A stretch of 64,000 nucleotides of DNA from Gemmatimonadota bacterium. GTDB lineage: Bacteria > Gemmatimonadota > Gemmatimonadetes > Gemmatimonadales > Gemmatimonadaceae. Both the position numbers and the translations under genes were made by a program. Location of the stretch: assembly GCA_040388625.1 (NCBI GenBank), contig JAZKBK010000003.1:248001-312000 (forward strand), given 5' to 3'. Under the pieces are notes generated by a model, which saw only the letters and a program-made list of their open reading frames with translations, was not told the origin of the DNA and did no database searches. How positions within the stretch are numbered: the stretch's first letter is position 1; each line of letters starts with the position of its first letter. Of this stretch, positions 17,255 through 34,790 are shown piece by piece.

Positions 17255-19552
17255 TCAGGGTTTCGCCGGCGGCAGGTTGGTCAGCAGATACCGCGTCAAC
17301 AACGAGTAGACGTGAAGCGTGGTTCCCGCGCCCTCACAAATGCAGTGAGTGCGATTGGGATATACCATCATGTCGAACTCCTTGCCGAGTGACACGAGGC
17401 GATTGACGAGACGCTCGGTGCCCTGATAGTGAACGTTGTCATCACCCGAGCCGTGCACCACCAGCAACTTGCCGCGCAACCCCTCTGCGAAGTTGATCGG
17501 CGATCCGACATCGTAGCCGTGCGCATTGGTGGACGGCAGGCCGACGTAGCGCTCCTCGTAAATCGTGTCGTACAACCGTTGATCCGCGACTGGTGCCACG
17601 GCCATGCCGAGCTTGTACACATCGGGATAACGGAACATCGCGTTTAGCGTGCTCGATCCGCCGCCGCTCCAGCCCCATATCGCGACGCGATTGCTATCGG
17701 CGTACGATCTGGTGCGCGCGAAGGTGCGTACCGCATCCGCCTCTTCCTGACTCGAAAGCGGACCGATCGCGCCGTAGATGACGTGACGCCATGCCCGACC
17801 CTTTGGCGCTGGCGTACCGCGGGTGTCGAAGCTGACAACGATATAGCCCAGGTCGGCCAGCATACGATGCCACAACATTCCGGGGCCGCCCCAGCGGTCC
17901 ACCACCGTCTGTGCGGCCGGCTCGCCATATACCTGGACGAGCACTGGATATTTCTTCTTCGGATCGAAATTGCGCGGGCGCAGCATCCAGCCATCGAGTG
18001 TAGCACCGTCGCTGATGTGAACCTGGAAGAACTCGACGGGAGGCTGCATGAGTGGCGCGACCGCGGTCTTGAGCGCCGCGTTGCTGACGAGCGTGCGCGC
18101 GGAGCGGTGCGCCGGCAGCTCGACGATGTCGGTAACGGGCGGCGTGTCGAACGTCGAATACGCGTGGACTGCCCACTGTGCGTTCGGCGAAATCGAATAG
18201 TTGTTGGTGCCAGTGAGATTTGCGGGAGTCACGCGCTCGGGCGGACCTGGCGACCGGTACGATACGCGGTAGAGATACCGTTGCGTAGCGTTCGTCGGCG
18301 ACGCGACGACGTAGAGCCAGCCACGCTTCTGATCGATGCCAGCGACGGAGATCACGTCGTACGCACCGGGTGTGACAAGCCGCAATTCGCTTGTCGCACG
18401 ACTGCCTACATATATATGGCGCCATCCGTCGCGCTCGCTCGGCCAGAGAAATTCCTTGCCGCCGTTCAACCACTGGAAGTCCTGCTCACGCATGTCGACC
18501 CAGGTGGTATCCTGTTCCGTGAGCAGATGATGAACGTCACCGGTACTCACGCTCGCGAGCACGAGATTATCCGTGTTCTGGAGCCGGTTCATCCGCTGGA
18601 TGACTACGTTGTTCGAGTCGGCCCATTCCATCCAGGGGACGTAGTTGTTGCGCGGGTCGCCGGTGAGCTTGGCCCAGACCACGGGGCCACCGGTGGCATC
18701 GACGACGCCGACCCGAACGGCTGAATTGGTTGTTCCTGCCTTGGGGTACTGAATTTCCTTCGTTACGGGATACAACGAGTCCGTATCGTTGATGAGCGTG
18801 AAGTCACGGACCCCGGACATGTCGAATTGCCAGAACGCAATGTGTCGCGAGTCGGGGCTCCATCTGAACCCATCGCGCAGATCGAATTCCTCTTCGTATA
18901 CCCAGTCACTCATGCCGTTGACGAGCGTGCGTGTCGCATCGCTCGTCAGTCTCGTTACGGCACCACCGGCAGTCGGCTCGACGTACAGGTCGCCCTTGTA
19001 GACGTACGCAACGTGCGACCCGTCCGGGGAGAACTTGGCAAACATGAGCGTGCTCGGCTCAGTGCTGGCACCCACGCGATGCAGCACACCGGAACGCGTA
19101 TCGAGCACCCAGTAATCACCGCGTGTGTTCTGGCGCCACACCTTCTGGGTGTTCGTGAATATGAGCAGATGGCTTCCGTCCGGCGACCACGCGTAGTTAT
19201 CCACTTCGAGCGGCTTCGCCGAAGTCGATGGACGGAGCAGTCGTGCCGAGACCAGAACCTCTCGCGCGCCGGTCCCCGCTGCATACTGCACGATGTCGGT
19301 GCCGTCCGCGACATCCTTCGATGGCTCGAGTGTGGTGTAGTGAATCCCGTCATCACGCCAGCGTGCGGGGGCGGCCCGATCGCCGACGTAGGCTCTTGAA
19401 TCGAAGATCCGGTGTAGCGATGAATCGACATGCGCGGGTAGCTGCGCGTGCAGCCGTACCGGAACACCCGACACGATGGTCGCTGCTGCCGCGACGTACG
19501 CCAGGCGGTGAAGCATTTCTGACCGTACGGCGCAGCTCGAATGAAGATTCAT
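17255..19552 (-). CDS. Exported S9 peptidase, dipeptidyl-peptidase IV-like
   Basis: Prolyl-type serine exopeptidase expected to cut dipeptides after Pro (or hydroxyproline) in the periplasm or at the surface. The 765-residue protein has a signal peptide (ending RLHAQ), an eight-bladed propeller, and a C-terminal alpha/beta-hydrolase domain. The catalytic Ser is in GWSGGGS (usual form GWSYGGY), Asp in HGSGDDNVHYQG, and His in NRTHCICEG. The double-Glu motif DWVYEEEF, which holds the substrate N-terminus in DPP-IV enzymes, is present. Start 19552 is used; ATG 19516 would give a tidier signal peptide and is equally possible. The gene begins 27 bases after the deaminase gene of the hydroxyproline operon on the same strand, so it is probably its last member. 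Confidence 0.9.
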   Translation of the reverse strand: MNLHSSCAVRSEMLHRLAYVAAAATIVSGVPVRLHAQLPAHVDSSLHRIFDSRAYVGDRAAPARWRDDGIHYTTLEPSKDVADGTDIVQYAAGTGAREVLVSARLLRPSTSAKPLEVDNYAWSPDGSHLLIFTNTQKVWRQNTRGDYWVLDTRSGVLHRVGASTEPSTLMFAKFSPDGSHVAYVYKGDLYVEPTAGGAVTRLTSDATRTLVNGMSDWVYEEEFDLRDGFRWSPDSRHIAFWQFDMSGVRDFTLINDTDSLYPVTKEIQYPKAGTTNSAVRVGVVDATGGPVVWAKLTGDPRNNYVPWMEWADSNNVVIQRMNRLQNTDNLVLASVSTGDVHHLLTEQDTTWVDMREQDFQWLNGGKEFLWPSERDGWRHIYVGSRATSELRLVTPGAYDVISVAGIDQKRGWLYVVASPTNATQRYLYRVSYRSPGPPERVTPANLTGTNNYSISPNAQWAVHAYSTFDTPPVTDIVELPAHRSARTLVSNAALKTAVAPLMQPPVEFFQVHISDGATLDGWMLRPRNFDPKKKYPVLVQVYGEPAAQTVVDRWGGPGMLWHRMLADLGYIVVSFDTRGTPAPKGRAWRHVIYGAIGPLSSQEEADAVRTFARTRSYADSNRVAIWGWSGGGSSTLNAMFRYPDVYKLGMAVAPVADQRLYDTIYEERYVGLPSTNAHGYDVGSPINFAEGLRGKLLVVHGSGDDNVHYQGTERLVNRLVSLGKEFDMMVYPNRTHCICEGAGTTLHVYSLLTRYLLTNLPPAKP

Positions 19553-19579: not shown

Positions 19580-20515
19580 TCAGGCAGCAGACGCCGTGGT
19601 CGTCATCGGTGTGGATTTGATGGCGGGACGACGCGCCAGGTGATCCCGAAGCAGCGCTCTGGTTTCTGCGGCTGCGGCAGGCGGCAGCTCGAGACGCGGC
19701 GCACGGACGGACGCCGTCCCGCAACCCATCTCCTGCTGCACGAACTTGATGTACTGAACGAATTCCGGCACGGTATCGAGGCGTAGCAGCGGCAGGAACC
19801 AGTCGTAGATCGCTCGCGCTTCCTTGATCTTGCCCGCGCTGGCCAGCCGCACCAGCTCCACGGATTCGGCAGGAAACGCGTTGACCAGGCCGGCGACCCA
19901 TCCGCTGGCGCCCATGACGATGGATTCGACGATCATGTCGTCCAGGCCGGCGAATACGTTGAGTCTGTCGCCCACTCGCGCAACGACCGCCGTCACCCGG
20001 CGTACGTCGCCACTGGATTCCTTCACTGCGTGGAGATTCGGATGCTTCGTCAGCTCAGCCACCTGTTCCGGAGTGACGTCCGTACCGTACGCGATCGGGT
20101 TGTTGTAGAGCATGCACGAAAGATCCGTCGCCTCGATCACGGCGCTGAAGTGTGCGCGCATTTCGGGCCACGTGCCCTTGTACACGTAGGGAGGAAGCAC
20201 CATGAGGCCTTCGCATCCCGCCTGCGCCGCTCGTTTGGCGAGCATGACACATTCAGCGGTCTGAAGGCCCGCGATGCCGGCGACGACCGGAACACGCTTG
20301 CCGACCGAGCTCACGCAGGTTCGAAGTACCTCGACCTTTTCGTCGAAGTCGAGTGTTGCACTTTCACCAAGCGACCCGAGCGCAACGATACCGGTGCAGC
20401 CGTGATCTACGAGCCACGAAACATGGCGTGCCACGAATTCGTGATCGACAGTCAGATCCTGCTTGAACGGCGTTGTGATCGCGGGGAACACACCCGTCCA
20501 TTGCGCCTTCTTCAT
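19580..20515 (-). CDS. DapA-family lyase, probable 1-pyrroline-4-hydroxy-2-carboxylate deaminase
   Basis: Class I aldolase-fold enzyme of 311 residues. The Schiff-base Lys165 is in AVKESSG, Tyr137 in MLYNNP, and the pocket motif is GSLGES at 47-52. By sequence alone it could be any dihydrodipicolinate-synthase-like lyase. Its position, overlapping the D-hydroxyproline dehydrogenase alpha subunit by four bases and two genes from an epimerase, points to the deaminase step that turns pyrroline-4-hydroxy-2-carboxylate into alpha-ketoglutarate semialdehyde. The assignment rests on context. Confidence 0.85.
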   Translation of the reverse strand: MKKAQWTGVFPAITTPFKQDLTVDHEFVARHVSWLVDHGCTGIVALGSLGESATLDFDEKVEVLRTCVSSVGKRVPVVAGIAGLQTAECVMLAKRAAQAGCEGLMVLPPYVYKGTWPEMRAHFSAVIEATDLSCMLYNNPIAYGTDVTPEQVAELTKHPNLHAVKESSGDVRRVTAVVARVGDRLNVFAGLDDMIVESIVMGASGWVAGLVNAFPAESVELVRLASAGKIKEARAIYDWFLPLLRLDTVPEFVQYIKFVQQEMGCGTASVRAPRLELPPAAAAETRALLRDHLARRPAIKSTPMTTTASAA

Positions 20516-21858
20516 TGGTACGCATCTCCGACAGAGGAATTGAAAAGGATCGAAGCAGCCGCGTCATCCGCGAGCTCCGACGACAGAACTGACACCAGCG
20601 CCGGTTCGATTGGCGGTCGAACCGTGTCCGGCTGCCAGGCGAGAAGAAAATCCAGCCCTGGCATGCACGTGCGGCCCTGGCAAGGACCCATGCCGACACG
20701 TGTGTACAACTTGGCCTGGCGCGCGCAGACCGAATCCTTCACAGCGCCGTACGACACATCCTCGCACCGGCACACGATCGTTTCGGCGGAAGGAAGCGAC
20801 CGCAGTTCCTGCCGAAGTGCGAAGGCGTCGAGCATGCGTCGAGCGGCGATCTCGAGCGCAGCTCGCTTTCGTAGCAATGCATCGGAGACACGGGCCCGCG
20901 GCGAGACGGCCGACCCTGCGATCTCGCCTTCGATCAACGACAACGGCGCTCCGCCAATCCCCGTCGCCTCGCCTACCGCGAGCACGTTGGCAACGGTGGT
21001 GCGCTGTTGCGCATCCACTGCAATGGCCCCGTCTCGCGTCTCGCAACCAAGCAGTCGTGCGAGCTCGACGTTCGGTATGAGGCCGTAGCCGGTGCAGAGC
21101 ACGTCGACTGCCTCACGCCAGGTCCGGCGACCATTGGTTACCGTCACGCTCTCCAACCGATCGGCTCCGTGTGCCGCAGTCACCCACGTGCCGGTCGAGT
21201 ATGATGTCGATAGAAAGCGTGCGCGATAGCGAGCCGCCTGCGCGACCAGCGCAGGTGCTCGCCACAAGCCGGCTGCAAAGCGCATCACCGCGCTGCGCCG
21301 GGCCTGCTCGGCGACGAGTATCAGCTTCGCGCCCGAGTTCGCGAGCGATGCCGCGACGGGGAGCATGAGCGGCCCCGATCCGGCAATAATCACGCGCTTG
21401 CCGGCGAATGATGCACCGGACTTGAGCAATGCCTGGGCGCCGCCGATGCCCATTACACCGGGAAGGGTCCATCCGTCGAATGGGATGAACAGTTCGCGCG
21501 CCCCCGTCGCGAGTATGATCCTGCCAGCACGCACGCGCAGCGCGCTGCCGGACGAATCCGCCAGAATCTCGAATTCTGCGTCTTCATGCTGCACATCTAC
21601 TACGGATGTACCGTGAATCACCTGCGCACCGGAACGCGAGAGCTGTGCAATCCAGTGCTGCGCGATGCGCGGAACCGGGCCGCCACTCATGTGACGCCAG
21701 ATCTGTCCGCCGGTCTCCAGTCCGCGATCGAGCACGACAACACGCAAACCCGACTCCGCCGCGCGGGTGGCGGCGGCGATTCCGGCCGGTCCCGCACCGA
21801 TGACCGCGACGTCAGCTACGATGAGCGTCGCATCCGTGCCAGCTAGCGGCGCCATCAT
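20512..21858 (-). CDS. D-hydroxyproline dehydrogenase, alpha subunit (FAD/NAD, BFD-like [2Fe-2S])
   Basis: 448-residue flavoprotein of the type found in heterotrimeric sarcosine-oxidase-like and D-hydroxyproline dehydrogenases. The N-terminal FAD motif GAGPAG is at residues 21-26, and a second nucleotide motif GSGPLMLPVA lies in the middle. The C-terminal domain carries cysteines CRCEDV and GPCQGRTC, a BFD-like [2Fe-2S] site. It would pass electrons from the beta subunit to the respiratory chain. It overlaps the small ferredoxin-like subunit upstream by four bases and the deaminase downstream by four bases, so the subunits are made together. Confidence 0.88.
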   Translation of the reverse strand: MMAPLAGTDATLIVADVAVIGAGPAGIAAATRAAESGLRVVVLDRGLETGGQIWRHMSGGPVPRIAQHWIAQLSRSGAQVIHGTSVVDVQHEDAEFEILADSSGSALRVRAGRIILATGARELFIPFDGWTLPGVMGIGGAQALLKSGASFAGKRVIIAGSGPLMLPVAASLANSGAKLILVAEQARRSAVMRFAAGLWRAPALVAQAARYRARFLSTSYSTGTWVTAAHGADRLESVTVTNGRRTWREAVDVLCTGYGLIPNVELARLLGCETRDGAIAVDAQQRTTVANVLAVGEATGIGGAPLSLIEGEIAGSAVSPRARVSDALLRKRAALEIAARRMLDAFALRQELRSLPSAETIVCRCEDVSYGAVKDSVCARQAKLYTRVGMGPCQGRTCMPGLDFLLAWQPDTVRPPIEPALVSVLSSELADDAAASILFNSSVGDAYQ

Positions 21859-22124
21859 GCTTCGGTGGCCGTGCGAATGTGCATTCCGTCAGCGACAGCG
21901 ATGAGACACGCACGCTGATGTGGTCTGCTGTCGATCGTCACTCTGCATTCGAAGCAGACACCCATGCCACAGACGGGGCCGCGCGGCTCGCCTGAAACCG
22001 ATCTGCGAAAAGCCGCAGTTCCAAGATTGAACAGCGCGGCCGCCACAGTCGTCCCGGCAGCTACACGAATGCGCTGGTCGTCAACAACGATGTTCAGCTC
22101 CGCCGCGGCACCGTTGATTGCCAT
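21855..22124 (-). CDS. D-hydroxyproline dehydrogenase, small [2Fe-2S] subunit
   Basis: 89-residue ferredoxin-like protein. Its cysteines follow CX4CX2CX12C: CGMGV, CFEC and a final QRAC, the plant-ferredoxin pattern of the small subunit in three-part amino-acid dehydrogenases. ATG 22124 (MAINGAAAELNIVV) shares one base with the stop of the beta subunit (TGATG). A longer open frame exists upstream, but only this start leaves the neighbouring gene intact and gives normal family length. Confidence 0.87.
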   Translation of the reverse strand: MAINGAAAELNIVVDDQRIRVAAGTTVAAALFNLGTAAFRRSVSGEPRGPVCGMGVCFECRVTIDSRPHQRACLIAVADGMHIRTATEA

Positions 22125-23248
22125 CAATGCGCTCCAACGCCGGCGAGCACCCGCGACGGAGCGAATGGCGCTGGATCGATCGCGGGGGCGCGCCCAGTGA
22201 TGAGATCGGCGAGCAGCTGTCCCGTTCCAACCGATGTCGTAATACCGAGTCCCTCGTGACCGGCCGCGATCCATAGTCCCGGCATCTCGTCCCATGAGCC
22301 GATGAGGGGCAGCTTGTCCGGGGTCGTAGGACGAAAGCCGGTCCACGTCCGGATCGCCGATGCGAGCGCCAGTCCCGGCATGAAGTCGAGCGCGCGATCG
22401 AGCATCCTGCGCACGATGGACCGATTGATCGATCCGTCCCATCCGACGAGCTCGCGCGATGAACCGATCAACATCTGCCCGGTAGCCCGCGGCTGAACGT
22501 TGAACGCGACCGATTCAGTCGTCATCGTGTGAGCGCTGGTCAGATATCCAAGCTCGACCAGCTGGTGCCGGCAGAATCCCGGATACCGGTCTGTGATGAC
22601 GAGATGTCCCTTGCGTGGTACGATCGGAATGCCGGGAGTAAGCTCCGGCGCCAGCGCACCGGCTGCGTTGATCACGCAGTCGCATGAGATCCGTTCGTTG
22701 CCGGCAATCACTTCACGCGCGCCGATCGCGTTTACACGAACGCCCTCCCGCACGCTGGCCCCGTTGGCGATCGCGCGCTGCAGCAGCGCCCGCGCACCAT
22801 TCGGCGGATAGATGACCGCATCGCCGCGCACGAGCAGGGCGCCAGCCAGACCGGGTCGCAGATGCGGTTCGGCTTCGGCAAGCTGCGCTGGGGACAGTAT
22901 CTCAGTCGCGACGCCGCTATCGGCATACACACTTTGCTTTGCGCGCACTGCTTCGAGCTGCTCATCATCTTCCGCAACCCAGAGGGTGCCGCACGCCTCG
23001 TGCTCGACGTTACGCGGCAGCTCTGGCGCCAGCGCCGCCCACAGCCGTCCTGAATACGCGGTGAGAGCGAGCTGCGCAGGCGAGTCATCCATCACAACCA
23101 GATGACCCATGCCAGCCGCTGTCGTACCGCTTCCGGCGAAGCTCGCGTCGAGCACGAGCACGCTCATCCCCGACCGGGACAGCGCCTCGGCGCACGCTGC
23201 ACCGACGATCCCCGCGCCGACAACCACAGCGTCGTGGTGCGCAGTCAC
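22124..23248 (-). CDS. D-hydroxyproline dehydrogenase, beta subunit (DAO-type FAD oxidoreductase)
   Basis: Catalytic subunit of the DadA/D-amino-acid-oxidase family; expected to oxidise cis-4-hydroxy-D-proline to 1-pyrroline-4-hydroxy-2-carboxylate. The FAD motif VVVGAGIVGAACAEALSRSG is near the N-terminus, and the C-terminal signature GFRPTTPDKLPLIG and AAGHEGLGITTS is typical. I use GTG 23248 (MTAHHDAVVVG, 374 residues), which starts just before the Rossmann fold. An ATG at 23305 would add 19 residues and overlap the epimerase gene by 20 bases. Confidence 0.88.
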   Translation of the reverse strand: MTAHHDAVVVGAGIVGAACAEALSRSGMSVLVLDASFAGSGTTAAGMGHLVVMDDSPAQLALTAYSGRLWAALAPELPRNVEHEACGTLWVAEDDEQLEAVRAKQSVYADSGVATEILSPAQLAEAEPHLRPGLAGALLVRGDAVIYPPNGARALLQRAIANGASVREGVRVNAIGAREVIAGNERISCDCVINAAGALAPELTPGIPIVPRKGHLVITDRYPGFCRHQLVELGYLTSAHTMTTESVAFNVQPRATGQMLIGSSRELVGWDGSINRSIVRRMLDRALDFMPGLALASAIRTWTGFRPTTPDKLPLIGSWDEMPGLWIAAGHEGLGITTSVGTGQLLADLITGRAPAIDPAPFAPSRVLAGVGAH

Positions 23249-23285: not shown

Positions 23286-24293
23286 TCACGCCGAAGGGAT
23301 TCCACCGCGGAACGGGTCCGTCGGATCGAATAGCAGCGTAGCCTCAGCGGTCACGTAAGCCGTACCGCGAATGTGCGGAATCAGCTCACCGCGCTCGTTC
23401 GTCGTGAGCCAACCCGTGAAAAGGCTTCCGCTGATGCTCTCCTGGCGCCACCGAGTCCCGAGCGTGATCTCACCCTTGGCATAGAGCACGGCAAGCTTGG
23501 CCGACGTTCCGGTGCCACACGGAGAGCGGTCGTATTCACCACCAGAGCACAGCACGAAGTTTCTGCAATCCGCATCCGCGCGCGTCGGTGCCGCCGAGAT
23601 CTCGATGTGATCGATCGGCTCCCCGTTCGCGCCGGTGATGCCGGCGGCGTTGATCGCATCCTGAATCGCCTGCGTCACGCGGGTCAATTCCTTCGCGTTC
23701 GAGGCGGTTACCGGGATCGGCGTGTCGTGCGTGATGAAGAACCAGTTGCCGCCCCACGCGACGTCGCCCACTACGAGACCAATGCCTGGCACCTGAACCT
23801 CGACGTTGCGCGCGTGACAGAATGACGGGACGTTCTCGATCGTCACGCTGCCATCGACACTGAACTCAGCCGAAACCGTCCCGACTGGCGTGTCCAGACG
23901 GATTGTGCCTGGTTGCACGCGGCCGAGGTGCTGCAGCGTGCGCACGACACCGATCGCGCCGTGTCCGCACATCCCCAGATACGTTCCGTTGTTGAAGAAG
24001 ATCACACCGGTCGTCGAATCCGGATTCACGGGTGGCGTCAACAGCGCGCCGACGATCGCGTCGTTGCCGCGCGGCTCGCACACCACTGCACGTCGCAGAT
24101 GATCGAAGTGCGTGCGCATATCGTCGCTCCGCTCCGCCATCGTAGCGCCGCGCGGCTGTGGCCACCCATCCAGCACCACGCGCGTGGGCTCGCCCTCGGT
24201 GTGCGAATCGACAACGTGAATCTTCGCGGGAAAGGTCGCAGTCGGTTCTTCTGCAATCACACCCGACTCCATGGTGGCGGTGCCGTCGGTCAC
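23286..24293 (-). CDS. 4-Hydroxyproline 2-epimerase (proline racemase family)
   Basis: Inverts the alpha carbon of trans-4-hydroxy-L-proline to cis-4-hydroxy-D-proline without a cofactor. Both catalytic cysteines are present: Cys109 in GMCGHGAIG and Cys259 in DRSPCGTGTSA. Two cysteines mean an epimerase; the related 3-hydroxyproline dehydratases have Thr at the second place. The N-terminal HTEGEPTRVV is also characteristic. Length 335 residues. The start overlaps the aldehyde dehydrogenase stop by four bases (ATGA). Proline racemase is the alternative reading, but the operon makes hydroxyproline by far the better substrate. Confidence 0.92.
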   Translation of the reverse strand: MTDGTATMESGVIAEEPTATFPAKIHVVDSHTEGEPTRVVLDGWPQPRGATMAERSDDMRTHFDHLRRAVVCEPRGNDAIVGALLTPPVNPDSTTGVIFFNNGTYLGMCGHGAIGVVRTLQHLGRVQPGTIRLDTPVGTVSAEFSVDGSVTIENVPSFCHARNVEVQVPGIGLVVGDVAWGGNWFFITHDTPIPVTASNAKELTRVTQAIQDAINAAGITGANGEPIDHIEISAAPTRADADCRNFVLCSGGEYDRSPCGTGTSAKLAVLYAKGEITLGTRWRQESISGSLFTGWLTTNERGELIPHIRGTAYVTAEATLLFDPTDPFRGGIPSA

Positions 24294-25744
24294 GGATTCA
24301 CCTGTACAGTCTTGATCTCGGTGTAGAACTCACGCGCAGCAGGTCCCTGCTCGCGACTACCGGAACTCGAGCCCTTCATTCCGCCAAAGGGCGCATGCGG
24401 GTCGACACCAGTGGTGTCTCCATTCACGCGCACCAGGCCGACGTGAATGCGATTGATGTAATCCAGCGCCGTCGTCAGGTCGCGCGTGAAAATCGATGCG
24501 CTCAGACCATAGGACGTGCGATTCGCCAGCTCGATTGCGTGATCTGCGTCGTCTGCGGTGAATGCGGCCAGCACTGGACCGAACAGTTCGCGCTGCGCGA
24601 GCAATCCATCCGGATCGCCTCCACGCACGACTGTCGGTGGAAAGAAGTTGCCGTTGCTGAACTCGGCGGACCCCGGTATGGGGACCGAAAACAGCGCCTC
24701 GGCGTTCGCATCCCTGAGCGCCTGCGTTATCGAATCGTGCGACACTCGACTGATCAGCGGACCCACTGCGGCCTTCGCGTCCGTGACCGGGCCGATGGGA
24801 AGCGATTCGACCTGCGAGCGAAGCTGGCTCAGAAACTCATTCTCGACGCTGCGGGCGACGACCACTCTGCTCGTCGCGGTGCACTTCTGGCCCGCGTAGC
24901 GCATTGCGCCCGCCGCGGTGAGTGATGCAGCCTTTGCAATGTCGGCATCCGGCATGACGATGACGACGTTCTTGCCGCCCATCTCGGTCTGATACCGTAT
25001 ATTGCGCGCCGCCGCGGTCGCAGCGACACGTGCCCCCACGGCGCCGGATCCGGTGAAGCTGACAGCGCGAACTTCCGGGGCCTCGAGTATTGCCGCGCCA
25101 ACTGTGGCTCCGGCACCGAACAGTACATTGAACACGCCGGCAGGAATGCCCGCTGCAGAAGCAGTTTCGGCAAGCAACGCCGCGAGGTACGACGACGACT
25201 CCGCGGGCTTGAGTACGACGGTATTACCGAATGCGAGCGCAGGCGCGACTTTCCATAGCGGAATCGCCAGTGGAAAATTCCACGGCGTGATCATCGCCAC
25301 CACACCGAGCGGCTCGCGCAAACTGAATTGAAGCGCGCCTGGAGATTGTGCTGGAATCACGTCGCCGATCTGGCGCACCGCGTCACCGGCGTAGTACCGC
25401 AGAATCACAACGCAGCGGGATACTTCGCCCCGCGCCTCGCCGATCGGCTTTCCGACCTCGCGCGCCATGACCTGCGCCAGCTCTTCGGCCCGGTCGCCGA
25501 TCGCCGCGGCCCATTTGTAAAGATGCTCGGCGCGTGCGGGACCCGTGAGCGCGCGCCACGCCGGGAACGCCCGCGCAGCGGCACTTGCCGCAGCATGCGC
25601 GTCGTTCGTCGAACCCTTCGGCACGAGTGCGATGACGTCGCGCACGTCGGAAGGGTTTACATCATCTATCCATCCATCTGTCTCGCTGTCACGCCAGCCA
25701 TTATCGATGAAGTGCTGCAGTCGTCTGGCAGTACTACCTGTCAT
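24290..25744 (-). CDS. Aldehyde dehydrogenase, probable alpha-ketoglutarate semialdehyde dehydrogenase
   Basis: NAD(P)-dependent aldehyde dehydrogenase of 484 residues. The catalytic Cys288 is in GQKCTATSR, the general-base Glu254 in YQTEMGGKN, and the cofactor motifs TPWNFPLAIP and FTGSGAVG are intact. In this operon the substrate should be 2,5-dioxopentanoate (alpha-ketoglutarate semialdehyde), giving alpha-ketoglutarate for the citric acid cycle. It overlaps the GntR gene upstream and the epimerase downstream by four bases each. Substrate choice is by context. Confidence 0.92.
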   Translation of the reverse strand: MTGSTARRLQHFIDNGWRDSETDGWIDDVNPSDVRDVIALVPKGSTNDAHAAASAAARAFPAWRALTGPARAEHLYKWAAAIGDRAEELAQVMAREVGKPIGEARGEVSRCVVILRYYAGDAVRQIGDVIPAQSPGALQFSLREPLGVVAMITPWNFPLAIPLWKVAPALAFGNTVVLKPAESSSYLAALLAETASAAGIPAGVFNVLFGAGATVGAAILEAPEVRAVSFTGSGAVGARVAATAAARNIRYQTEMGGKNVVIVMPDADIAKAASLTAAGAMRYAGQKCTATSRVVVARSVENEFLSQLRSQVESLPIGPVTDAKAAVGPLISRVSHDSITQALRDANAEALFSVPIPGSAEFSNGNFFPPTVVRGGDPDGLLAQRELFGPVLAAFTADDADHAIELANRTSYGLSASIFTRDLTTALDYINRIHVGLVRVNGDTTGVDPHAPFGGMKGSSSGSREQGPAAREFYTEIKTVQVNP

Positions 25745-26511
25745 GATCTTCGTTCCTTTGTTGGTCGCCCTTCTTCAGCCTCTCGCTCCGCGCTGACGAA
25801 CCTGACGAGCTGACGGCCGGCGCCGAGTATGTGTTGCCGCATGAGCGAACAAGCCTGCTTGACATCCTGTGCCGCGACGGCCGCAAGAATGGCGCGATGC
25901 TCGTCGATCGCGCGCGATTCACCGTGCGTGAGCACCAGCTGCATGCGTAGATACCGATCGCTCTGCTGGTGCAACCGCTGAATGATCGCCATGGTGAATG
26001 GGCGATCGGCGGCAGCATAGAGGGTCGAGTGAAATTCCCAGTTCAACTTGCCCCACTCGGCGACCTCACCAGCTCGGAATGCCGCCTCGTAGGCCTTGAG
26101 TATGTCCTTGGCGCGGGAGATGCTTTCCACCGTGGTCTGCATGATCGCGCGGCGGACCAGGTCACCCTCGATCTGCGCGCGCAGCTCGAACAACTCGTTG
26201 ATCTCATCCACGGAGAGCGACGAAACCACCGCGCCGCGATGCGGATTGAATACGACGAGTCCTTCCGCTTCCAGCTGACGAAGTGCTTCGCGAATCGGGA
26301 TTCGACTCACGCCCAGTTCGGCGGCAAGCGCATCCTGTCGAAGCGGCGTGTCGTCGGCGTAAACCCCGCGCAGGATCCTCTCGCGCAACGCCTCCGTCGC
26401 CTGGTGCGTGACGGTTTGGCGCGTGATCGGCACTACCATCATCTTCGTCTCGTTCGAACTCTTGCCGACGGCCTTGACGGCCTTGTTGGATGAACCGAGG
26501 GTGCGACCCAT
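25741..26511 (-). CDS. GntR-family regulator (FCD domain), first gene of the hydroxyproline operon
   Basis: 256-residue DNA-binding repressor or activator. The winged helix is at about residues 33-95 (ATEALRERILRG, then LGVSRIPIREALRQLEAEGLV), followed by a helical FCD ligand domain with metal-binding-type residues at about 100-230. GGAG lies ten bases before ATG 26511. The stop overlaps the aldehyde dehydrogenase start by four bases, so the regulator is made with the enzymes and likely controls its own operon. Its probable operator is the dyad at 26609-26621. An internal start at MMVVPITRQ (residue 24) is possible. Confidence 0.92.
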   Translation of the reverse strand: MGRTLGSSNKAVKAVGKSSNETKMMVVPITRQTVTHQATEALRERILRGVYADDTPLRQDALAAELGVSRIPIREALRQLEAEGLVVFNPHRGAVVSSLSVDEINELFELRAQIEGDLVRRAIMQTTVESISRAKDILKAYEAAFRAGEVAEWGKLNWEFHSTLYAAADRPFTMAIIQRLHQQSDRYLRMQLVLTHGESRAIDEHRAILAAVAAQDVKQACSLMRQHILGAGRQLVRFVSAEREAEEGRPTKERRS

Positions 26512-26608: not shown

Positions 26609-26641
26609 GGATACAATATCCTATTTTTCGACGCGCGGCAA
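26609..26641 (-). promoter_or_regulatory. Promoter and candidate GntR operator of the hydroxyproline operon
   Basis: On the minus strand TTGCCG (26641-26636), 17 bases and TATTGT (26618-26613) form a sigma70-like promoter about 100 bases before the GntR start. A dyad GGATA-N3-TATCC at 26609-26621 covers the -10 element, a place where a bound repressor would block initiation. A near-identical dyad occurs upstream of the susC gene at 34761-34773. Binding by this GntR protein is inferred. Confidence 0.6.
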
Positions 26642-26677
26642 GTGCGGAGTGCCGCCGCGGCACCAGTCCATCGACAC

Positions 26678-29600
26678 CTACCGGCGGCCGCCGCTGCCGA
26701 ACGACGTGGGGATCGCCCCCACCTTTCCCTGCATCCGGCTGTTGAACGCCGGTACGTCGCGATCGACCAGGGTCGTATAGCTGGCCCGTGCCGCGGCCAG
26801 ATCCCGCTCGATCCCGCTCAGCACTTCGAGCGACTGCGATGTGGGCCGATAATCCGCCCCGCCGGCAACGTCGCCAGCACCGCTACCCACCTCGCCCGAG
26901 AGCCAGACCAGGTTCATGTATACCTTGAATTGCTCGACGTAATACTTGTCATCGCTCTGCATGTCCGAGCGCGTCAATAATTGCAGCTCGACGCCGAGCA
27001 TCTGGTTGTTCAGACGATCCAGGTCCGCAACGACGTCCGATTTGCCCGTATTGGCGGCGCGCTCGTCGGCGATGGTCTTCCGCATCGACTCGATGTGGTT
27101 GATCATGTTCACCGCCTCGGTCATGTCGTTGCGAATCCGCAGCTGGGTCTGGGTCGATGCAACGAGGTCCGCTGTCGGCGATGGCATGTCCGGGTCGCGA
27201 ATCACTTCGAACGGCTGAGTCCAGCTCTTTCCCGACGCCGTGAGCCGCACTGAATACTTGCCCGGTGATGCGATCGGGCCAGTCCGCACAGGAGCTTCGA
27301 TTCCCCAGTGCAACACGGGCCGAGTCGAGCTTCCGGCGAATCGCGGATCGGCAAAGATGTGCGGGTTGTCAGGAGCGACCGTGCGCAGCACGACCTGCGG
27401 CGCTGCTTCGTAGCGCAGATCCCACGGCACGCGATTGAGTCCTGCACGAGCTCTGAGATGGAACGTGCGAATCGGGGTGCCTGATGCATCCAGCACTTCG
27501 ACGCCCACGCTGTCCTGCGCCTGTGGTAGCTCGAAGGTGAAGTCGGCGCGGCCGGACCGTGACTGGCGAAATGCCAGATGCGGCGCGAAGAGACGTGGCG
27601 CCGCCGGCGTCGCGGACGCTCCCTGCTCCAGCGCAGTAACGTCGCGCAGAATGTACAGCCCACGTCCATACGTCGACACGACGACGTCGTTCCATTTCTT
27701 CGGAACGGCTATCCACGTCACCGGCGCCGCCGGGAGACCGGCGTTGAACTTCGTCCAGTGCGCGCCGTCGTTCACCGAGTAGTAGAACGCGTTCCCCGTT
27801 CCCGCAAACAACATCCCCTTCCTGTCCGGATTCTCCGCGATCGTCATCACGTACGCGAGCGGGTGATCGTTCGGGAGATCCGACGTGATGTTGGTCCACG
27901 TGTGTCCGTAGTCGGTCGTCTTGTAGATGTACGGCTTGCGGTTATCCATGATGTGGAAATCGATCGCCACGTATGCCGTCGCGGGATCGAAGTGCGACGG
28001 CTCGATCCTCCGGATCGTTCCCCACGGCGGCAATCCCTTCATGTTGGCCGTGACGTTGTTCCAGTGACCGCCAGCGTCCGAAGTGTACCATACCTGCCCG
28101 TCGTTCGTACCAGCCCAGATCAGGCCACGCTTGATCTCCGATGGAGCAATCGCGAATACAACCTCGCCGTAGAACTGTCCGAGGTTGTCGGCAACGATTC
28201 CGCCGGACGACACGATGCGCGAAGGATCGCGCGTCGAGAGATCCGGACTGATCACGGTCCAGTGCTGTCCCGCATCCGAAGTGCGGAAGATCACCTGGCA
28301 GCCGTAATACACGGTCTTGGTATCGAATGGATCGATGGCGAGCGGCGGCGTCCAGTGACAGCGATACTTCGTCTTGTCGGGCGGAGAATCGAGTGTGTGA
28401 ACCCAGGGACTTACCGAGTGCGCAAGCTTGGTGCGTGCATCGTAACGAGTGACCTCGTTTCCGTAGCAGCTCGCCCACACTATGTCGGTGTTTGCCTTGT
28501 CCGGCAGCGTGAAGCCCGACTCGCATCCGCCAAGTCCATTCTCCCATGGCGTGCGGCTGTACACATTGCCAAAGCTCTGCGGCGGAAATTCCGGATTCTC
28601 ACTCGTAGCCGGAGCGCGACGGCGTCCCTCGCCCGCTGTCGTGTCACGAGCCGCTCCGCGCCGGATCGTCGAATCCCTTCGCATGCTGTCGGCGTGGATC
28701 GTGTCGGCTGGCGGCTCCGGACGGCGGCGCTCGAAATTGCGAATTGGTGCGTCGCTCGCGCCGCGCATCGGAAAGCTGTTGTCCTGCCGGTTGGAATAGA
28801 TCCAGTACGGCACCCTGGCATCGACGGCGACGTGGTACATCTGCCCGTTGGGAAGCGATACCTGCGTGAAGCTCTTCCCGTGATTGAGCGTGATGTGCGC
28901 GCCAGCGTCATCCGTCAGCGCAAAGCTGTCCGGGTCCTTTGGATCGATCCAGATGTCGTGCGTATCGCCGCCCCACGGCACTGCCTTGAACGTCTTCCCG
29001 CCATCCTTCGATTGCCAGAAGCTGCTGTTGGCAATGAGTATTTCATCCGCGTTCCCGCTGGACACCTTGATGTTGATGTAGTAGCCGGCGCGGCCTATGA
29101 GTGTTCGCTGCCAGTTCACGTTCTTCCACGTGCGTCCGGCATCATCGGATCGCCAGACGGATCCCTGATCAGCGGTCTGTATCAGTGCATAGACGCGATT
29201 CGAATTGGTCGGCGCAACAGCGACATCGATCTTGCCAAGCGGTGACTTCGGAAGACCCGGATCGGTGAGCTTGCTCCACGTGTTGCCGCCATCGCGCGTG
29301 ACGTAGAGTCCGCTCGATGGACCACCGCCCAACATTACCCAGGTGTGCATCACGACCTGCCACATTCCTGCAAATACAACGTTCGGATCGTGCGCATCCA
29401 TCGACAACCCGGAGCATCCCGTGCCATCGTCGACAAACAGCACGCGTGTCCACGACTTGCCCCCATCAGTCGTGCGATACACTCCGCGCTCCTGCTGCGG
29501 GCCGGTCGTGCGTCCGAGCGCGCAGACGAATACGATGTTCGCATTGGTCGGATTGACTATGATCCGGCCAATTCGCCCCGTCTCGCGCAAGCCCATGTTC

Positions 29601-30025
29601 TTCCACGTCTTGCCCGCATCCGTGGACTTGTAAATCCCATCACCCATGACGTCCGCATCACGAATCGCCCACGCCTCGCCGGTCCCGGCCCATACGGTGC
29701 CGGGTTCCGACGGAGCAGTGGCGAGCGCACCGATCGCCTGAACATCCATACTGTCAAACACTGGCACGAAGGTGCGCCCGCTATCGCTCGACTTCCACAC
29801 ACCGCCCGACGCCGAGCCCATGTACCACGTACGCGGATCACCCGCGACGCCCGACACCGAAGCGATGCGGCCACCGTTCGCCGGCCCCATGTACTCGAAA
29901 GCAAACGGTTCCGTTTCAAGCCCGCGATTTGGCGGACCCGTACGCTGCGCCACTGCGGACGCAGGGCCAAGCGTTGTCGCTATTCCGATAGTTGCGGCGA
30001 TCAGGAAAATCGAGCGATTGTGCAT
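26678..30025 (-). CDS. Large exported Asp-box (VPS10/sortilin-like) beta-propeller protein
   Basis: 1115-residue secreted protein. A signal peptide (MHNRSIFLIAATIGIATTLGPASAVAQ) is followed by at least nine Asp-box/BNR repeats of the form S-x-D-x-G-x-T-W: SSDSGRTF, STDAGKTW, TTDGGKSW, TRDGGNTW, SDDAGRTW, SKDGGKTF, TSDAGQHW, TSDAGGHW, TTDYGHTW. They imply two sortilin-type propellers. The C-terminal third is a beta-sandwich region and a helical tail. Such proteins are often called glycosyl hydrolases, but no sialidase catalytic residues are evident; sortilin-type propellers bind peptides. It starts 21 bases after the SusD gene, so it belongs to the susCD operon. Confidence 0.85.
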   Translation of the reverse strand: MHNRSIFLIAATIGIATTLGPASAVAQRTGPPNRGLETEPFAFEYMGPANGGRIASVSGVAGDPRTWYMGSASGGVWKSSDSGRTFVPVFDSMDVQAIGALATAPSEPGTVWAGTGEAWAIRDADVMGDGIYKSTDAGKTWKNMGLRETGRIGRIIVNPTNANIVFVCALGRTTGPQQERGVYRTTDGGKSWTRVLFVDDGTGCSGLSMDAHDPNVVFAGMWQVVMHTWVMLGGGPSSGLYVTRDGGNTWSKLTDPGLPKSPLGKIDVAVAPTNSNRVYALIQTADQGSVWRSDDAGRTWKNVNWQRTLIGRAGYYINIKVSSGNADEILIANSSFWQSKDGGKTFKAVPWGGDTHDIWIDPKDPDSFALTDDAGAHITLNHGKSFTQVSLPNGQMYHVAVDARVPYWIYSNRQDNSFPMRGASDAPIRNFERRRPEPPADTIHADSMRRDSTIRRGAARDTTAGEGRRRAPATSENPEFPPQSFGNVYSRTPWENGLGGCESGFTLPDKANTDIVWASCYGNEVTRYDARTKLAHSVSPWVHTLDSPPDKTKYRCHWTPPLAIDPFDTKTVYYGCQVIFRTSDAGQHWTVISPDLSTRDPSRIVSSGGIVADNLGQFYGEVVFAIAPSEIKRGLIWAGTNDGQVWYTSDAGGHWNNVTANMKGLPPWGTIRRIEPSHFDPATAYVAIDFHIMDNRKPYIYKTTDYGHTWTNITSDLPNDHPLAYVMTIAENPDRKGMLFAGTGNAFYYSVNDGAHWTKFNAGLPAAPVTWIAVPKKWNDVVVSTYGRGLYILRDVTALEQGASATPAAPRLFAPHLAFRQSRSGRADFTFELPQAQDSVGVEVLDASGTPIRTFHLRARAGLNRVPWDLRYEAAPQVVLRTVAPDNPHIFADPRFAGSSTRPVLHWGIEAPVRTGPIASPGKYSVRLTASGKSWTQPFEVIRDPDMPSPTADLVASTQTQLRIRNDMTEAVNMINHIESMRKTIADERAANTGKSDVVADLDRLNNQMLGVELQLLTRSDMQSDDKYYVEQFKVYMNLVWLSGEVGSGAGDVAGGADYRPTSQSLEVLSGIERDLAAARASYTTLVDRDVPAFNSRMQGKVGAIPTSFGSGGRR

Positions 30026-30046
30026 TGAAATCCCGGTGTGTTGTTA

Positions 30047-31420
30047 TCAGGCGCCGCACGCGTGCGGATCGTTCCAGTTGAGCGTCGGATCCGCAGGGAC
30101 GTTCGGATTCGTCTGACGCTCTGAATTCGTGTAGAGCATTCGGCCAGGCAGCGACGCCGCACCATTCGCCGGTACGAGCGCGGGCAGGCACGTGCGCTTG
30201 TAGTCGTTCCACGCCTCGACGTTCTGGAACAGAGTGATGTACTTCTCCTGCATGATGCTGGCGAGCGATACGGGCCCCGCTATTGCCGGAAGCGTCAACG
30301 CCGAGTGCCACGGTGTCGCGGTGGCCCATGCGGCACGCTCACGGTTGAGCGTATCGAGCGCTGCCTGAGTGTTACCCAGCTGGAACAACGCCTCCGCCTT
30401 GATCAACAGATTCTCGTTGTATGTGACGAGCGGTTGGCGATAATCAGGCGCAAGTCGCTTCGCGCTGATCGTGGACATGTTTCCCGCGAGCCCCTGTCCC
30501 GGCGACGCGCCGATGTAATCTGTCGCGCCAGCCGCAATCTGGTAATACTCGGCAAGCCGTGGATCACCGAGGCTCTTGAGCAGGTCTACCTGATACTTGC
30601 CGGCGCGCATGAAGCCGGTACGCGTTCCGGTGAGCATGAACTGATACCAGTCATTCTGCTCGTTCGCGTTGCTCGTCTGGTAGGTGATGTAGTCAGCCGC
30701 GTTGCTCGAGATGCCCAGATTGGCCTCGGTCAGCGCCTTTGCATAGTTCGTGGGATCCCGCTCGGCCAGATGCAGATAGAAGCGGGCCTTGAGCGTGTGC
30801 GCAAGCTGCAACCAGAGAGCTGGATTCCCCTTGTAGACAATCTCCGCGGCGCCTGGCCCGACTCCCGTAGCGCCACTCAGATTCGCAATCGCCTGATCCA
30901 GCGTTGCCAGCACACTGTCGTACACGACCTGCTGCGGATCGTACTTTGGCGTCGGGAACGAATCGGCCTTGGCCGCCTGGCTGTACGGCACGTCGCCCCA
31001 TACGTCGGCGAGCGTCCCAATCTCCCATGCCTTGAGCGTCTGCGCTATGCCAAGAAATATCTTGTCCCCAGACGCGGCCGAGTTTGCCTCGATCGAGCGG
31101 ATGTCGATCAGCCCGCCGCCGGTGTACGGCATGCTGAAGTCGCCACTACCGCCGTCCAGAACGTACAGATCCTGCACCTGATACTGCAGCTGCGTCCCTG
31201 CCATCTGCTGCATCCACATGGATACCACGCGTGGCAGGTTGCCGTTGAGAAACTGTGTGAGCTTCGCCTGCACAGCGACGAGACGCTGCGTGGAAGTTGC
31301 TGCTGTCGGTGCGTTTGGACTGGTGATGCAGTCGGCGCACTTGAGATAGTTATCGCCGCAGCTCGCAACGACGACTGGAATCGCCGCCGCCAGTGCCGCA
31401 CTTCTGATGTATCGCTTCAC
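30047..31420 (-). CDS. SusD/RagB-family outer-membrane lipoprotein
   Basis: Surface lipoprotein that captures the ligand and acts as lid for its SusC-type transporter. Signal peptide MKRYIRSAALAAAIPVVVASC ends in lipobox VASC. The 457-residue body is helical, with repeated TPR-like pairs, such as IFLGIAQTLKAWEIGTLADVWGDVPYSQA, shared with the SusD-like_2 group. The SusC gene ends 19 bases upstream on the same strand. RagB-type proteins bind peptides, SusD-type bind glycans; this sequence alone does not decide. Confidence 0.9.
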   Translation of the reverse strand: MKRYIRSAALAAAIPVVVASCGDNYLKCADCITSPNAPTAATSTQRLVAVQAKLTQFLNGNLPRVVSMWMQQMAGTQLQYQVQDLYVLDGGSGDFSMPYTGGGLIDIRSIEANSAASGDKIFLGIAQTLKAWEIGTLADVWGDVPYSQAAKADSFPTPKYDPQQVVYDSVLATLDQAIANLSGATGVGPGAAEIVYKGNPALWLQLAHTLKARFYLHLAERDPTNYAKALTEANLGISSNAADYITYQTSNANEQNDWYQFMLTGTRTGFMRAGKYQVDLLKSLGDPRLAEYYQIAAGATDYIGASPGQGLAGNMSTISAKRLAPDYRQPLVTYNENLLIKAEALFQLGNTQAALDTLNRERAAWATATPWHSALTLPAIAGPVSLASIMQEKYITLFQNVEAWNDYKRTCLPALVPANGAASLPGRMLYTNSERQTNPNVPADPTLNWNDPHACGA

Positions 31421-31439
31421 GGATGGATCTCCTTTGGGA

Positions 31440-34400
31440 TCAGCGGTTCAGAGCGACTGAAAACACGAACGATCGCGTCTGCGGCATGTTGAAGAAGTCA
31501 TAGCCCTGCACCAGCGCGTCTGCTCCAGCGAGATTGGTTTCGGGATCGATGCCCGAGTACTTCGTCCACGTGTGCAGATTGCGCCCCGAAATCCGAAGGT
31601 CGGCGCTGCTGAACCCGGCATGGCGCACGAATGCGCCGGTGAGCGAGTATGTCACCGACAACTCGCGCAGCTTGGTGTATGTGCCATCCTCCATGAACGG
31701 CTCGCCAATTCCGGAGTAGATGCTTCCAAGCCCCGTGTACCATGACTGCCCGATCTGAACAGGAGTGCCCTTGCCCGGTCCCACCGTTGCTCCCGGCATG
31801 AAGTCCACTCCGAAGGTGCGGGTGACGTCGCGCTGCTCTGTTTCAATGGACGTCCCGAAGTTGTTGAGTGCACCCTTGGTCATGTTAGCGACCATACCAC
31901 CCTGCTTGTGGTCGAGCAGCGCCGACAGCGCCCAGCTTCCGAAGTGGACGGTCGTGTGCATGTTGCCGGTCCAGTGCGGATTGGGATCGCCGATTACACG
32001 ATTCACAGGATCGTTCACCGGGAAGCCCGACGCTCCGATGTACAACGCGCCTCGCGGCGCACCCGCGCACGCTGACGCAAGGTCGACCGGATGACCGGCG
32101 GGATCCTTCAGATTGGTGCTCGTGGTGACGCCGCAGCGAACGTAGCCCAGTCCGCGGAACGCGAATGTTCCACCGACTGTTGCTGAAGGCTGTGCTTCGG
32201 AGAACGTTCCGCCACCAGCGCCAATGTACGTGGCACCGTTGAGGCTGAGAACGCGAGTTTCATTCTGTGCCCACTGACCACCAATTTCCCACGTCAGCTT
32301 CTGCGTCGTTATCGGCCGCACGTTCAGTGTAGCCTCCCAACCGCGGTTGAGGATCGCCGCTCCATTGAGAAGCTGCGCCGAGAAGCCCGTCGTGGATGGA
32401 CGCGGCACACTCAGGATGACGTCCGTCGAGTTGTCGCGATAATACGTGATGCCTGCGTCCGCCATCTGATTGAACAGACCAACGTCGAGACCTGTCTCGA
32501 ACTCCTTCTGGCGCTCGGGCCTGAGGTTGTTGTTGCCCTGTGTGCCAGAGGTAACCAGACCGCCGTAGCCACCCTGCGTCGATGACAGCTGATCGGTGTA
32601 GCCGCTGGCGAAGGTCGCACGACCGAGTGTCGAAAGAGTGGAGTAGACGTTCGGCTCCTTGCCCGTCTCGCCGTACGACGCGCGCACCTTGCCGTAGCTG
32701 AGCAGTCCGCGATGGTCGGTATTGCCCAGTGCATTCGTGAACGTCCAGGCGAGGCTCGCCTTGGGGTACGACGCACGCGGATTGCTCGCGCCGAACGTCG
32801 AGAACCCGTCGTTTCGAACGGCGCCAGTGAGATACAACTGGTTGTAGAGATCGACAGTCGCCTCGCCGAAATACGACAGTGCATGGATCACGTAGTCGTA
32901 TTCCGTCGCGAGCTGCGTCACCGTGTTGTTCAGAGAGAACGGCGACGGTGCGATGAGTCCGTTGCCGGTCGCATCCACTTCGCGACCCCGCCGGCTGTTG
33001 ACGTTGTTCCCAACCGTCAACGTGCCGCTCACGTTGGAATTGAAGGTGTGCGTTGCGGTTGCGATGAGATTCTGGTCGATCTGGAGGTGCATCAGATCTG
33101 CGCGTCTGACGAGACCGAGTGGCGATTCGCTCGCGGTGAACGACTCGCCCGTGAGCTGCGTGTCGCCGAAGTAGTCGCCGCCCAGATTCTCCGCCAGGCG
33201 CAGCCAGCTCTTTGGCTGCCAGTCGGCGGTGAGATTGGCGATCGTGCGGTTCGTCTCTTCCGTGCTCGGATTCTCGTATACGGCGAACAGCGGGTTGTCA
33301 TAACCACGCGACCGCGTGAGCGATGCCGGCGATGGGTCGGGAAAACGATATGAACGTTGCAGCCCCGTCGTCGTCGAGAGATACGGGAACTGATTGAAGT
33401 CCGGCGGCGTCCGCAGTGCGCCCAGCATCAGACCGGACACCGACCCGCCACGAAGGATCGATGCACCGCGGTCATCCGCGAACGAGATGTTGCCGCCAAG
33501 CTTGAAATTGTCGAAGACCTGGTGCGTCGCCTTGAGACGCACGTCGGTTCTGTCGTAGTAATTGTTCGGGCCGATGATCACGCCGTTCTGCGCATCGCGC
33601 CCGCCGGATGCGAAGAACGTGGTGCGCTCGTTTCCACCCGATATCGTGATGTGGTTGTTCGTCGTATGACCGGTGTGGAACAGCTCGCTGAAGTGATCGT
33701 ACGTCGGAACTCCCGAGAGCGCCGGTCCCCACGAGCCGCTCGCCGCGGAGCAGTCTGGTGTCGAGCATGCGCCAGGTTTGCCAAGGCTGCCCTGGCCATA
33801 CTTGGTCTGCAACGGGATGCTGTGGTTGACGTCGTCCACGGAATAGCTCGAATTCAACGAGTAACGCGTCGGGCCCGCCTGTCCCGATTTCGTTGTGATG
33901 AGCACGACACCGTTGGATGCGCGCGCGCCGTAGATGGCGGCCGCTGCGGCGCCTTTGAGTATGTCGACCGATGCGATGTCGTCGGGGTTGATATCCGACG
34001 CACGGTTCGGCGTGTTCGAGCCAGTGAGGTTGCTGCCATTGACGTTGGTCGTGTTGTCGATCGGCACTCCATCGACCACGAACAGTGGCTGTCCGTCACC
34101 CGATAGCGACTTGATGCCGCGAATGCGGATGTACGCCGACGATCCGGGCACGCCCGATTCGGATACGACCGACACACCGGGCGCCTTGGCTGCAAGTGCG
34201 TTGACCACATTCGACTCGTTGCTCTTGGCAATGGCTGTCGAGTCGACGGAGTTGATCACGTTACCCAGCTTCTCGCGCGTGCTGCTCGTGCCGGCGCCGG
34301 TGACGACCACCTCGCCAAGACGCAGTGGATTGCTCGCAAGACTGAAGTTCTGCGTTACAGTCCCGGGGCTGAGTGTGATCTGGACTGATTTCGGTGCGAA

Positions 34401-34661
34401 ACCGATGAGTCGCGCGGTGAGCGTGACCTTCTGCCCGAGCGATCGAGCGGCAGACACGGTTATGGTGTAGTGACCGTCAGCGCGCGTCGCCGCGCCGAGT
34501 CCCATCGTCTGCACCACGACTTCCGCAGCCTGAAGCGGCACGCCCTTGTCTGTTGTGACCACGCCGACGATCGTGGTTCCAGTTTGCTGCGCGGCTGCGC
34601 GCTGGGGCGCGATCTCCGCGCCAATACAGAGCGGCAACACCAACCATACCGTAGCTCTCAT
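31440..34661 (-). CDS. SusC/RagA-family TonB-linked outer-membrane transporter
   Basis: Outer-membrane beta-barrel importer of 1073 residues, energised by TonB. Signal peptide [16 protein letters not shown] ... AAAQQ; then a carboxypeptidase-regulatory-like domain (about 27-110, [16 protein letters not shown]), the TonB-box region [10 protein letters not shown], a plug with [16 protein letters not shown] and [10 protein letters not shown], and the barrel ending in the aromatic strand [12 protein letters not shown] chose ATG 34661 because GGAGAGGAG precedes it directly and the signal peptide starts there; the frame is open for another 43 residues upstream, across the promoter. The operon order is susC, susD, VPS10-like gene. 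Confidence 0.93.
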
Positions 34662-34760
34662 GACTCCTCTCCGACCGCACGCAGCAAAGTGCGGCAGAAA
34701 TGTGAAAGCAGACGGACGCCGCCCACCCGGGACTCCGGCGCCCTCCGCCGAGGACAGGCA

Positions 34761-34790
34761 GGATATAGTATCCCATTTTGGATTGCGCAA
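34761..34790 (-). promoter_or_regulatory. Promoter and candidate shared operator of the susC operon
   Basis: On the minus strand TTGCGC (34790-34785), 17 bases and TATATC (34767-34762) make a promoter-like pair about 100 bases before the SusC start. The dyad GGATA-N3-TATCC at 34761-34773 overlaps the -10. Read on the plus strand, the 18 bases from the dyad onward match those at 26609 except for three transitions. The GH35 gene ends at 34815, just upstream. Confidence 0.6.

Follow-up and report, generated by a model that had tools for sequence, protein, structure and literature searches.

Repressors of the GntR family carrying an FCD domain control hydroxyproline use in several bacteria. HypR of S. 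meliloti represses the hyp genes (White et al. 2012, cited in PMC5343134 and PMC6608401). Control of the same type is predicted in many Proteobacteria, autoregulation being common in the group (PMC5343134), and is demonstrated in Streptomyces, where the operator is CTNTGC(A/C)ATGTCAC (PMC6608401). Sites of the FadR subfamily normally contain TKGT/ACMA boxes, with GT and AC spaced by 2 nt for HypR, and BioR and NanR are described exceptions (PMC4494728). Here we analyse a 64,000-nt stretch of a Gemmatimonadota genome (the window) in which the inverted repeat GGATA-N3-TATCC (the dyad) precedes both a hydroxyproline catabolic operon headed by an FCD-type GntR regulator and an operon coding a SusC-type receptor, a SusD-like lipoprotein and a sortilin-type (VPS10) propeller. 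Sequence comparison makes it very likely that the dyad is the operator of this regulator, which would jointly repress the two operons and further loci, be released by a metabolite and serve the use of plant glycoprotein. The kind of regulon is already known; its operator, its phylum and its content are new. Regulons and SusCD substrates of Gemmatimonadota are little described: no hydroxyproline or SusCD regulon of this phylum was found in the open-access papers searched, nor any hydroxyproline regulon with SusCD or sortilin-type proteins.

The regulator combines an N-terminal GntR winged helix (PF00392, 3.5e-17) with a C-terminal FCD domain (PF07729, 6.8e-28), the domain composition of the FCD/FadR subfamily. 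The conserved operator proposed for it, G[G/T]ATA-N3-TAT[C/A]C, lacks the TKGT/ACMA boxes; since exceptions to these boxes are described, the regulator stays in the FadR subfamily. As for S. meliloti HypR, it is encoded with a pathway from L-hydroxyproline to alpha-ketoglutarate, and its gene clusters with the catabolic genes with which it has the predicted operator in common, the arrangement of a HypR-type regulon. In contrast, the GntR protein whose gene adjoins the S. meliloti hyp genes shares only 30% identity with it, differs in its recognition helix (IDEVQLAERFKMSRTPIREAL) and is accompanied by the palindrome TTGTCGACAA, while no G[G/T]ATA-N3-TAT[C/A]C was found in 28 kb of the S. meliloti hyp region. 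The Gemmatimonadota protein would therefore work in a HypR-like way, but is not a HypR orthologue and has a different predicted operator. Two copies of TTGTCGACAA flank the pSymB GntR gene beside the hyp genes (L189, at about 1216 and 1963) and fit the TKGT-N2-ACMA of HypR. The S. meliloti regulon, in the portion of PMC5343134 at hand, lists no SusCD or sortilin-type proteins. S. coelicolor HypR, according to the accessible part of PMC6608401, is likewise an FCD-GntR repressor with a site over its own −10, and its regulon adds to the hydroxyproline genes a remotely located gene for a secreted protease (putative M9 collagenase); it differs by the operator given above and by a description without SusCD, propeller or arabinofuranosidase members.

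The susC operon of the window also resembles the SusCD importers of Bacteroidota (RagAB, Sus), in which a TonB-dependent SusC and a SusD lipoprotein are encoded beside hydrolases: its TonB plug/barrel protein with a CarboxypepD_reg domain is followed by a SusD-like lipoprotein. Bacteroidota SusCD systems are usually under local sensors of the extracytoplasmic function (ECF)/anti-sigma, hybrid two-component or SusR types, whereas the control predicted here comes from a cytoplasmic GntR protein that senses a metabolite and extends over several SusCD loci together. A further likeness is to the HypBA1/HypBA2 beta-arabinooligosaccharide system of Bifidobacterium, with GH127/GH146-family beta-L-arabinofuranosidases for plant hydroxyproline-rich glycoproteins (PMC7263609, PMC10850190). 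Unlike in Bifidobacterium, which uses an ABC importer for the sugars, the arabinofuranosidase-family genes have here a predicted operator in common with hydroxyproline catabolism.

Dyads of the window and of its genome

The genes of both operons read on the minus strand of the window. GGATA-N3-TATCC is found at 26609-26621 (GGATACAATATCC) and at 34761-34773 (GGATATAGTATCC) and nowhere else in the window in exact form, against a mean of 0.04 in shuffled sequences (none of 100 shuffles reached two copies). The original prediction, which had located both dyads, thus described a pair beyond chance. Its count of 15 identical bases out of 18 when the right flank is included, with three differences that are all transitions, was borne out, and it was right for both promoters that the dyad covers a −10 with 17-base spacing, although the two dyads (O1 and O2) do so in different registers, each conserved in relatives:

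26609..26621, minus strand: predicted operator dyad O1 (coding strand: GGATATTGTATCC), spanning the −10 of the GntR/hydroxyproline operon
26613..26618, minus strand: putative −10 TATTGT inside O1 (dyad positions 4-9), 17 bp from TTGCCG, in a register common to GntR promoters of other genera
26636..26641, minus strand: putative −35 TTGCCG of the GntR operon, with the CTTG element described below
34761..34773, minus strand: predicted operator dyad O2 (coding strand: GGATACTATATCC), in front of susC and kept at its orthologues
34762..34767, minus strand: putative −10 TATATC inside O2 (dyad positions 7-12), 17 bp from TTGCGC, in a register repeated at orthologous susC promoters
34785..34790, minus strand: putative −35 TTGCGC of susC, conspicuous with the dyad, as CTTGCGC, amid otherwise diverged upstream DNA

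The genome that contains the window (G000; 3.84 Mb in 22 contigs) has ten exact dyads compared with three copies of a reversed control pattern, and six sites of a GT form, GTATA-N3-TATCC (T at position 2), for which the control count is zero. The ten exact dyads correspond to nine loci, nearly all of them for peptide uptake or digestion. The loci are:

exact dyad: window GntR/hydroxyproline operon
exact dyad: window susC operon
exact dyad, tandem pair: second SusC-SusD
exact dyad: third SusC-SusD, with a PD40 protein
exact dyad: lone VPS10 protein
exact dyad: M1 aminopeptidase
exact dyad: DPPIV peptidase, with an OPT oligopeptide transporter behind it
exact dyad: GH127-family protein
exact dyad: site flanked by an amidase and an MLE-type enolase
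GT form: M1-like peptidase; DUF885; BNR protein; S15 X-Pro dipeptidyl peptidase (PepX); GH31; second GH127-family protein

The two forms replace each other at orthologous promoters of the genus: the PepX site is GT in G000 and G003 and GG in G002, the third SusC promoter, GG in three genomes, is GT in G002, and the DUF885 promoter is doubly GT (GTATA-N3-TATAC) in G001 and G002. The operator is therefore written G[G/T]ATA-N3-TAT[C/A]C. A reading of the GT-form sites as plain −10 elements was rejected on the grounds of the zero control count, their recurrence at orthologues in the genus and the exchange of GG, GT and doubly-GT forms at PepX, SusC_C6 and DUF885. Other one-mismatch sites inside open reading frames (ORFs; most of L130-L139) were treated as background. 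The regulon predicted in this way has about 15 loci, with three SusCD systems (the dyad is present at three of the five SusD-like_2 loci of the genome), sortilin-type propellers, prolyl, X-Pro and M1 peptidases, the oligopeptide transporter, GH31 and both GH127/GH146-type genes. The scan proposed originally thus finds a rare dyad that is concentrated at genes of peptide uptake and digestion, but the self-contained 17-kb system then envisaged does not hold, the two operons being part of this larger predicted set. A D-serine dehydratase/alanine-racemase-fold gene (L012:9337-10527) sits between the dyad-bearing M1 and GH127-family genes.

Fifty-two sites were compared for promoter architecture; many are orthologous and do not count as independent events. 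In 27 of them CTTG precedes the dyad by 17-24 nt, against 1.8 in shuffles. GntR promoters mostly have CTTG at offset 20 and G at dyad position 8, while susC, VPS10 and DPPIV-OPT promoters have offset 17 and A at this position; the offset matches the −10 register, so that the −35 to −10 spacing stays 17. Across the compared Gemmatimonadota promoters CTTGC recurs as the apparent −35 core, which might be typical of promoters throughout the phylum. Tandem dyads 21-22 bp apart occur as well, an arrangement that suggests two dimers bound on one DNA face. A dyad lying over the −10, with CTTGC at fixed spacing and with GT-form sites that all face their gene in the genome, could also be a promoter element, namely a −10 variant for a particular sigma factor. 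We hold this to be highly improbable because both arms are symmetrically conserved while the promoter register differs, because of the tandem copies, and because the number of sites tracks the regulator rather than the family as a whole (see below).

Conservation of the dyad with the regulator

Close orthologues of the regulator (>250 bits) were found in 21 of the 148 genomes of the family set; counts are per genome, with phylogeny considered only through the number of genera. In 16 of these 21, from six genera, an exact dyad is present 51-262 bp upstream of the orthologue (measured to the first aligned codons, not to mapped starts) amid diverged flanking DNA. Four more genomes have near versions. 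In G004 and G094 a one-mismatch dyad is upstream of the regulator; in G118 and G124 a DPPIV gene precedes the regulator and has in front of it a dyad that deviates at one or two positions. The contig of G130, the remaining genome, ends before the upstream region of its regulator. The sequence TGATGGTNTATCC, upstream of three regulators (g14), was considered as an operator variant and rejected; it is inside the preceding DPPIV coding sequence, and better dyads are found upstream of the DPPIV gene. Nine GntR homologues of lower identity (24-38%) are without a dyad within 1.5 kb, even when one mismatch is allowed. Hydroxyproline genes are present in nearly all clusters of the regulator orthologues. 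The 21 regulator-bearing genomes carry 69 exact sites (31 of them in the 17 genomes outside the genus) as compared to 32 in the 127 genomes without the regulator. Homologues of one dyad-bearing SusC are preceded by the dyad in 6 of 12 regulator-positive genomes and in none of 18 regulator-negative ones.

In the genus of the window, represented by four genomes, the dyad is kept at every orthologue of the window susC (twice in G001, and in G002 and G003), where CTTGCGC and the dyad are essentially all that stands out in the promoter. The tandem pair at the second susCD is found in all four genomes. The dyad is also kept at the third susCD, at DPPIV-OPT, at M1 (in three genomes) and at VPS10 (in two), and the predicted operator is likewise conserved at GH31 and GH127b. 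In G049, from another genus, a susCD pair and the regulator gene diverge from a common upstream region that contains a single dyad. The footprinting suggested with the original prediction therefore gives, besides the sites at the regulator, recurrence at susC in the whole genus, and together with the genome scan it supports the proposed link of both operons through one GntR protein. G001 and G002 encode a second regulator copy (67% identical in G002) with dyads nearby, which in G002 is beside DPPIV and another SusCD pair; this is a duplication of the regulator together with its predicted targets. Contig C3 of G019 carries, besides another copy of the regulator, a hydroxyproline operon with paired dyads in front of a VPS10 gene and of a second proline-racemase-family gene.

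The regulator orthologues have in common the recognition segment LRQDA...GVSRIP, with GVSRVP in one of them. The genome of the window codes only one other FCD protein, around which no GGATA-type dyad with up to two mismatches was found in 9 kb. Close upstream of this other FCD-GntR gene (L140, G000:C5:316000-325000, at about 320.1 kb) there is a 16-bp palindrome, CATCATACGTATGATG, that is probably its own operator. Beyond the phylum, Xaviernesmea regulators (48% identical) have the same segment, and the promoter that separates the deaminase gene from the regulator gene contains GTATAAAATATCC. A Vibrio regulator (44.5% identical; segment LRQDALAKEFNVSRIP) is accompanied by GTATAAAATATAC between divergent hydroxyproline dehydrogenase-like and epimerase genes, with a second copy before another gene. 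A new clade of FCD-GntR hydroxyproline regulators, characterized by LRQDA...GVSRIP and G[G/T]ATA-N3-TAT[C/A]C and present in Gemmatimonadota and some Alpha- and Gammaproteobacteria, has in our judgement an even chance of being real. In Gemmatimonadota it would command SusCD, propeller, peptidase and arabinofuranosidase loci, with hydroxyproline as the single inducing signal for plant glycoprotein use. It would be a second type of hydroxyproline regulator, set apart from classical HypR by operator and recognition helix.

Several observations weigh against control by the GntR protein. In Thalassospira and Burkholderia, whose regulators are 46% identical and have similar recognition helices, no dyad was found in 12 kb. 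In genomes with the regulator the dyad is missing at half of the SusC homologues, so that target content varies by genus. No clear part in hydroxyproline use can be assigned to the site between MLE and amidase genes or to the VPS10 and BNR members. Moreover, most dyad-bearing genes deal with peptides in general, as would be expected if another, for example non-FCD, factor such as a general peptide or starvation regulator bound the dyad and the GntR gene were merely one more target. This alternative appears unlikely in view of the dyad at the GntR gene in six genera, its tracking of regulator presence, the different palindrome at the sole other FCD protein, and the association of same-helix regulator, hydroxyproline genes and dyad in Xaviernesmea and Vibrio.

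Proposed control and substrate

From the sequence, position and conservation of the dyad and its co-occurrence with the regulator, which are observed, we infer binding, repression, effector and substrate as follows. The GntR regulator (25741-26511) most likely binds G[G/T]ATA-N3-TAT[C/A]C as a dimer across the −10; as a dimer on the dyad would cover this element, it is expected to repress, blocking RNA polymerase at its own hydroxyproline operon, at the SusC-SusD-VPS10 operon and at about 13 further loci. A metabolite derived from hydroxyproline would bind to the FCD domain and free the regulator from the DNA, whereupon surface uptake, X-Pro and prolyl peptidases, arabinofuranosidases, oligopeptide import and hydroxyproline catabolism would rise together. 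The likely food is a hydroxyproline-rich plant glycoprotein of the extensin or arabinogalactan-protein type. With the conserved operator, a dozen hydrolases, SusCD pairs and sortilin-type propellers from scattered loci can be treated as one system, which is testable and for which an inducer is predicted.

In plants, extensins, arabinogalactan proteins and arabinans bear beta-L-arabinofuranose (PMC10850190, PMC7263609). The genome has two GH127-family genes, each with the predicted operator; one is closest to GH146-type beta-L-arabinofuranosidases (5opj, 8k7x) and the other to GH127 (4qjy). Beta-L-arabinofuranose is not known to decorate collagen. Two close relatives are metagenome-assembled genomes named palsa and fen (peat). 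Because of the operator at both GH127-family genes and the peat relatives, plant glycoprotein is the better guess than the collagen-like material of the original prediction, which finds no support here. The same regulon could serve animal collagen or gelatin, whose peptides would suit hydroxyproline catabolism and prolyl/X-Pro peptidases; given the operator at the GH127-family genes and a GH31, and the peat origin of the relatives, this is a minority possibility. A search of the genome for M9 collagenase, also pertinent to collagen, gave no match, but its controls were equally silent. The predicted system points to a way in which bacteria of soil and peat may recycle the hydroxyproline-rich protein of plant cell walls.

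Genes of the two operons

The gene assignments of the original prediction are retained for SusC, SusD-like_2 and Sortilin-Vps10, and for a hydroxyproline operon headed by an FCD GntR gene:

25741..26511, minus strand: FCD-type GntR regulator, 256 aa, predicted regulon repressor; GntR and FCD domains, recognition helix segment LRQDALAAELGVSRIPIREAL
24290..25744, minus strand: alpha-ketoglutaric semialdehyde (KGSA) dehydrogenase; NF042993, 6.6e-160, below its cut-off
23286..24293, minus strand: 4-hydroxyproline 2-epimerase; NF052296, 3.2e-117, 391 of 450 bits
22124..23305, minus strand: DAO-family FAD subunit, putative D-hydroxyproline dehydrogenase
21855..22145, minus strand: 2Fe-2S (Fer2_4) subunit; start inside the 195-aa ORF 21855-22442, placed from the end of the preceding gene
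20512..21858, minus strand: Pyr_redox_2/Fer2_BFD subunit of the dehydrogenase
19580..20515, minus strand: DHDPS-family pyrroline-4-hydroxy-2-carboxylate deaminase; assigned to family, role from operon context
17255..19552, minus strand: DPPIV/S9 prolyl peptidase, last gene of the hydroxyproline operon
31440..34661, minus strand: SusC-type TonB-dependent receptor; putative start at 34661
30047..31420, minus strand: SusD-like_2 lipoprotein
26678..30025, minus strand: Sortilin-Vps10 beta-propeller protein, 1115 aa

Epimerase, D-hydroxyproline dehydrogenase, deaminase and KGSA dehydrogenase are all present and the gene set is kept in relatives. The trans-4-hydroxy-L-proline pathway is complete as judged by family content, with scores below the NCBIfam equivalog cut-offs. 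A 687-aa protein (34815-36878, minus strand), whose gene ends just upstream of the susC operator and which has weak exo-beta-glucosaminidase/GH35 family matches and no dyad of its own seen, adjoins susC also in G003.

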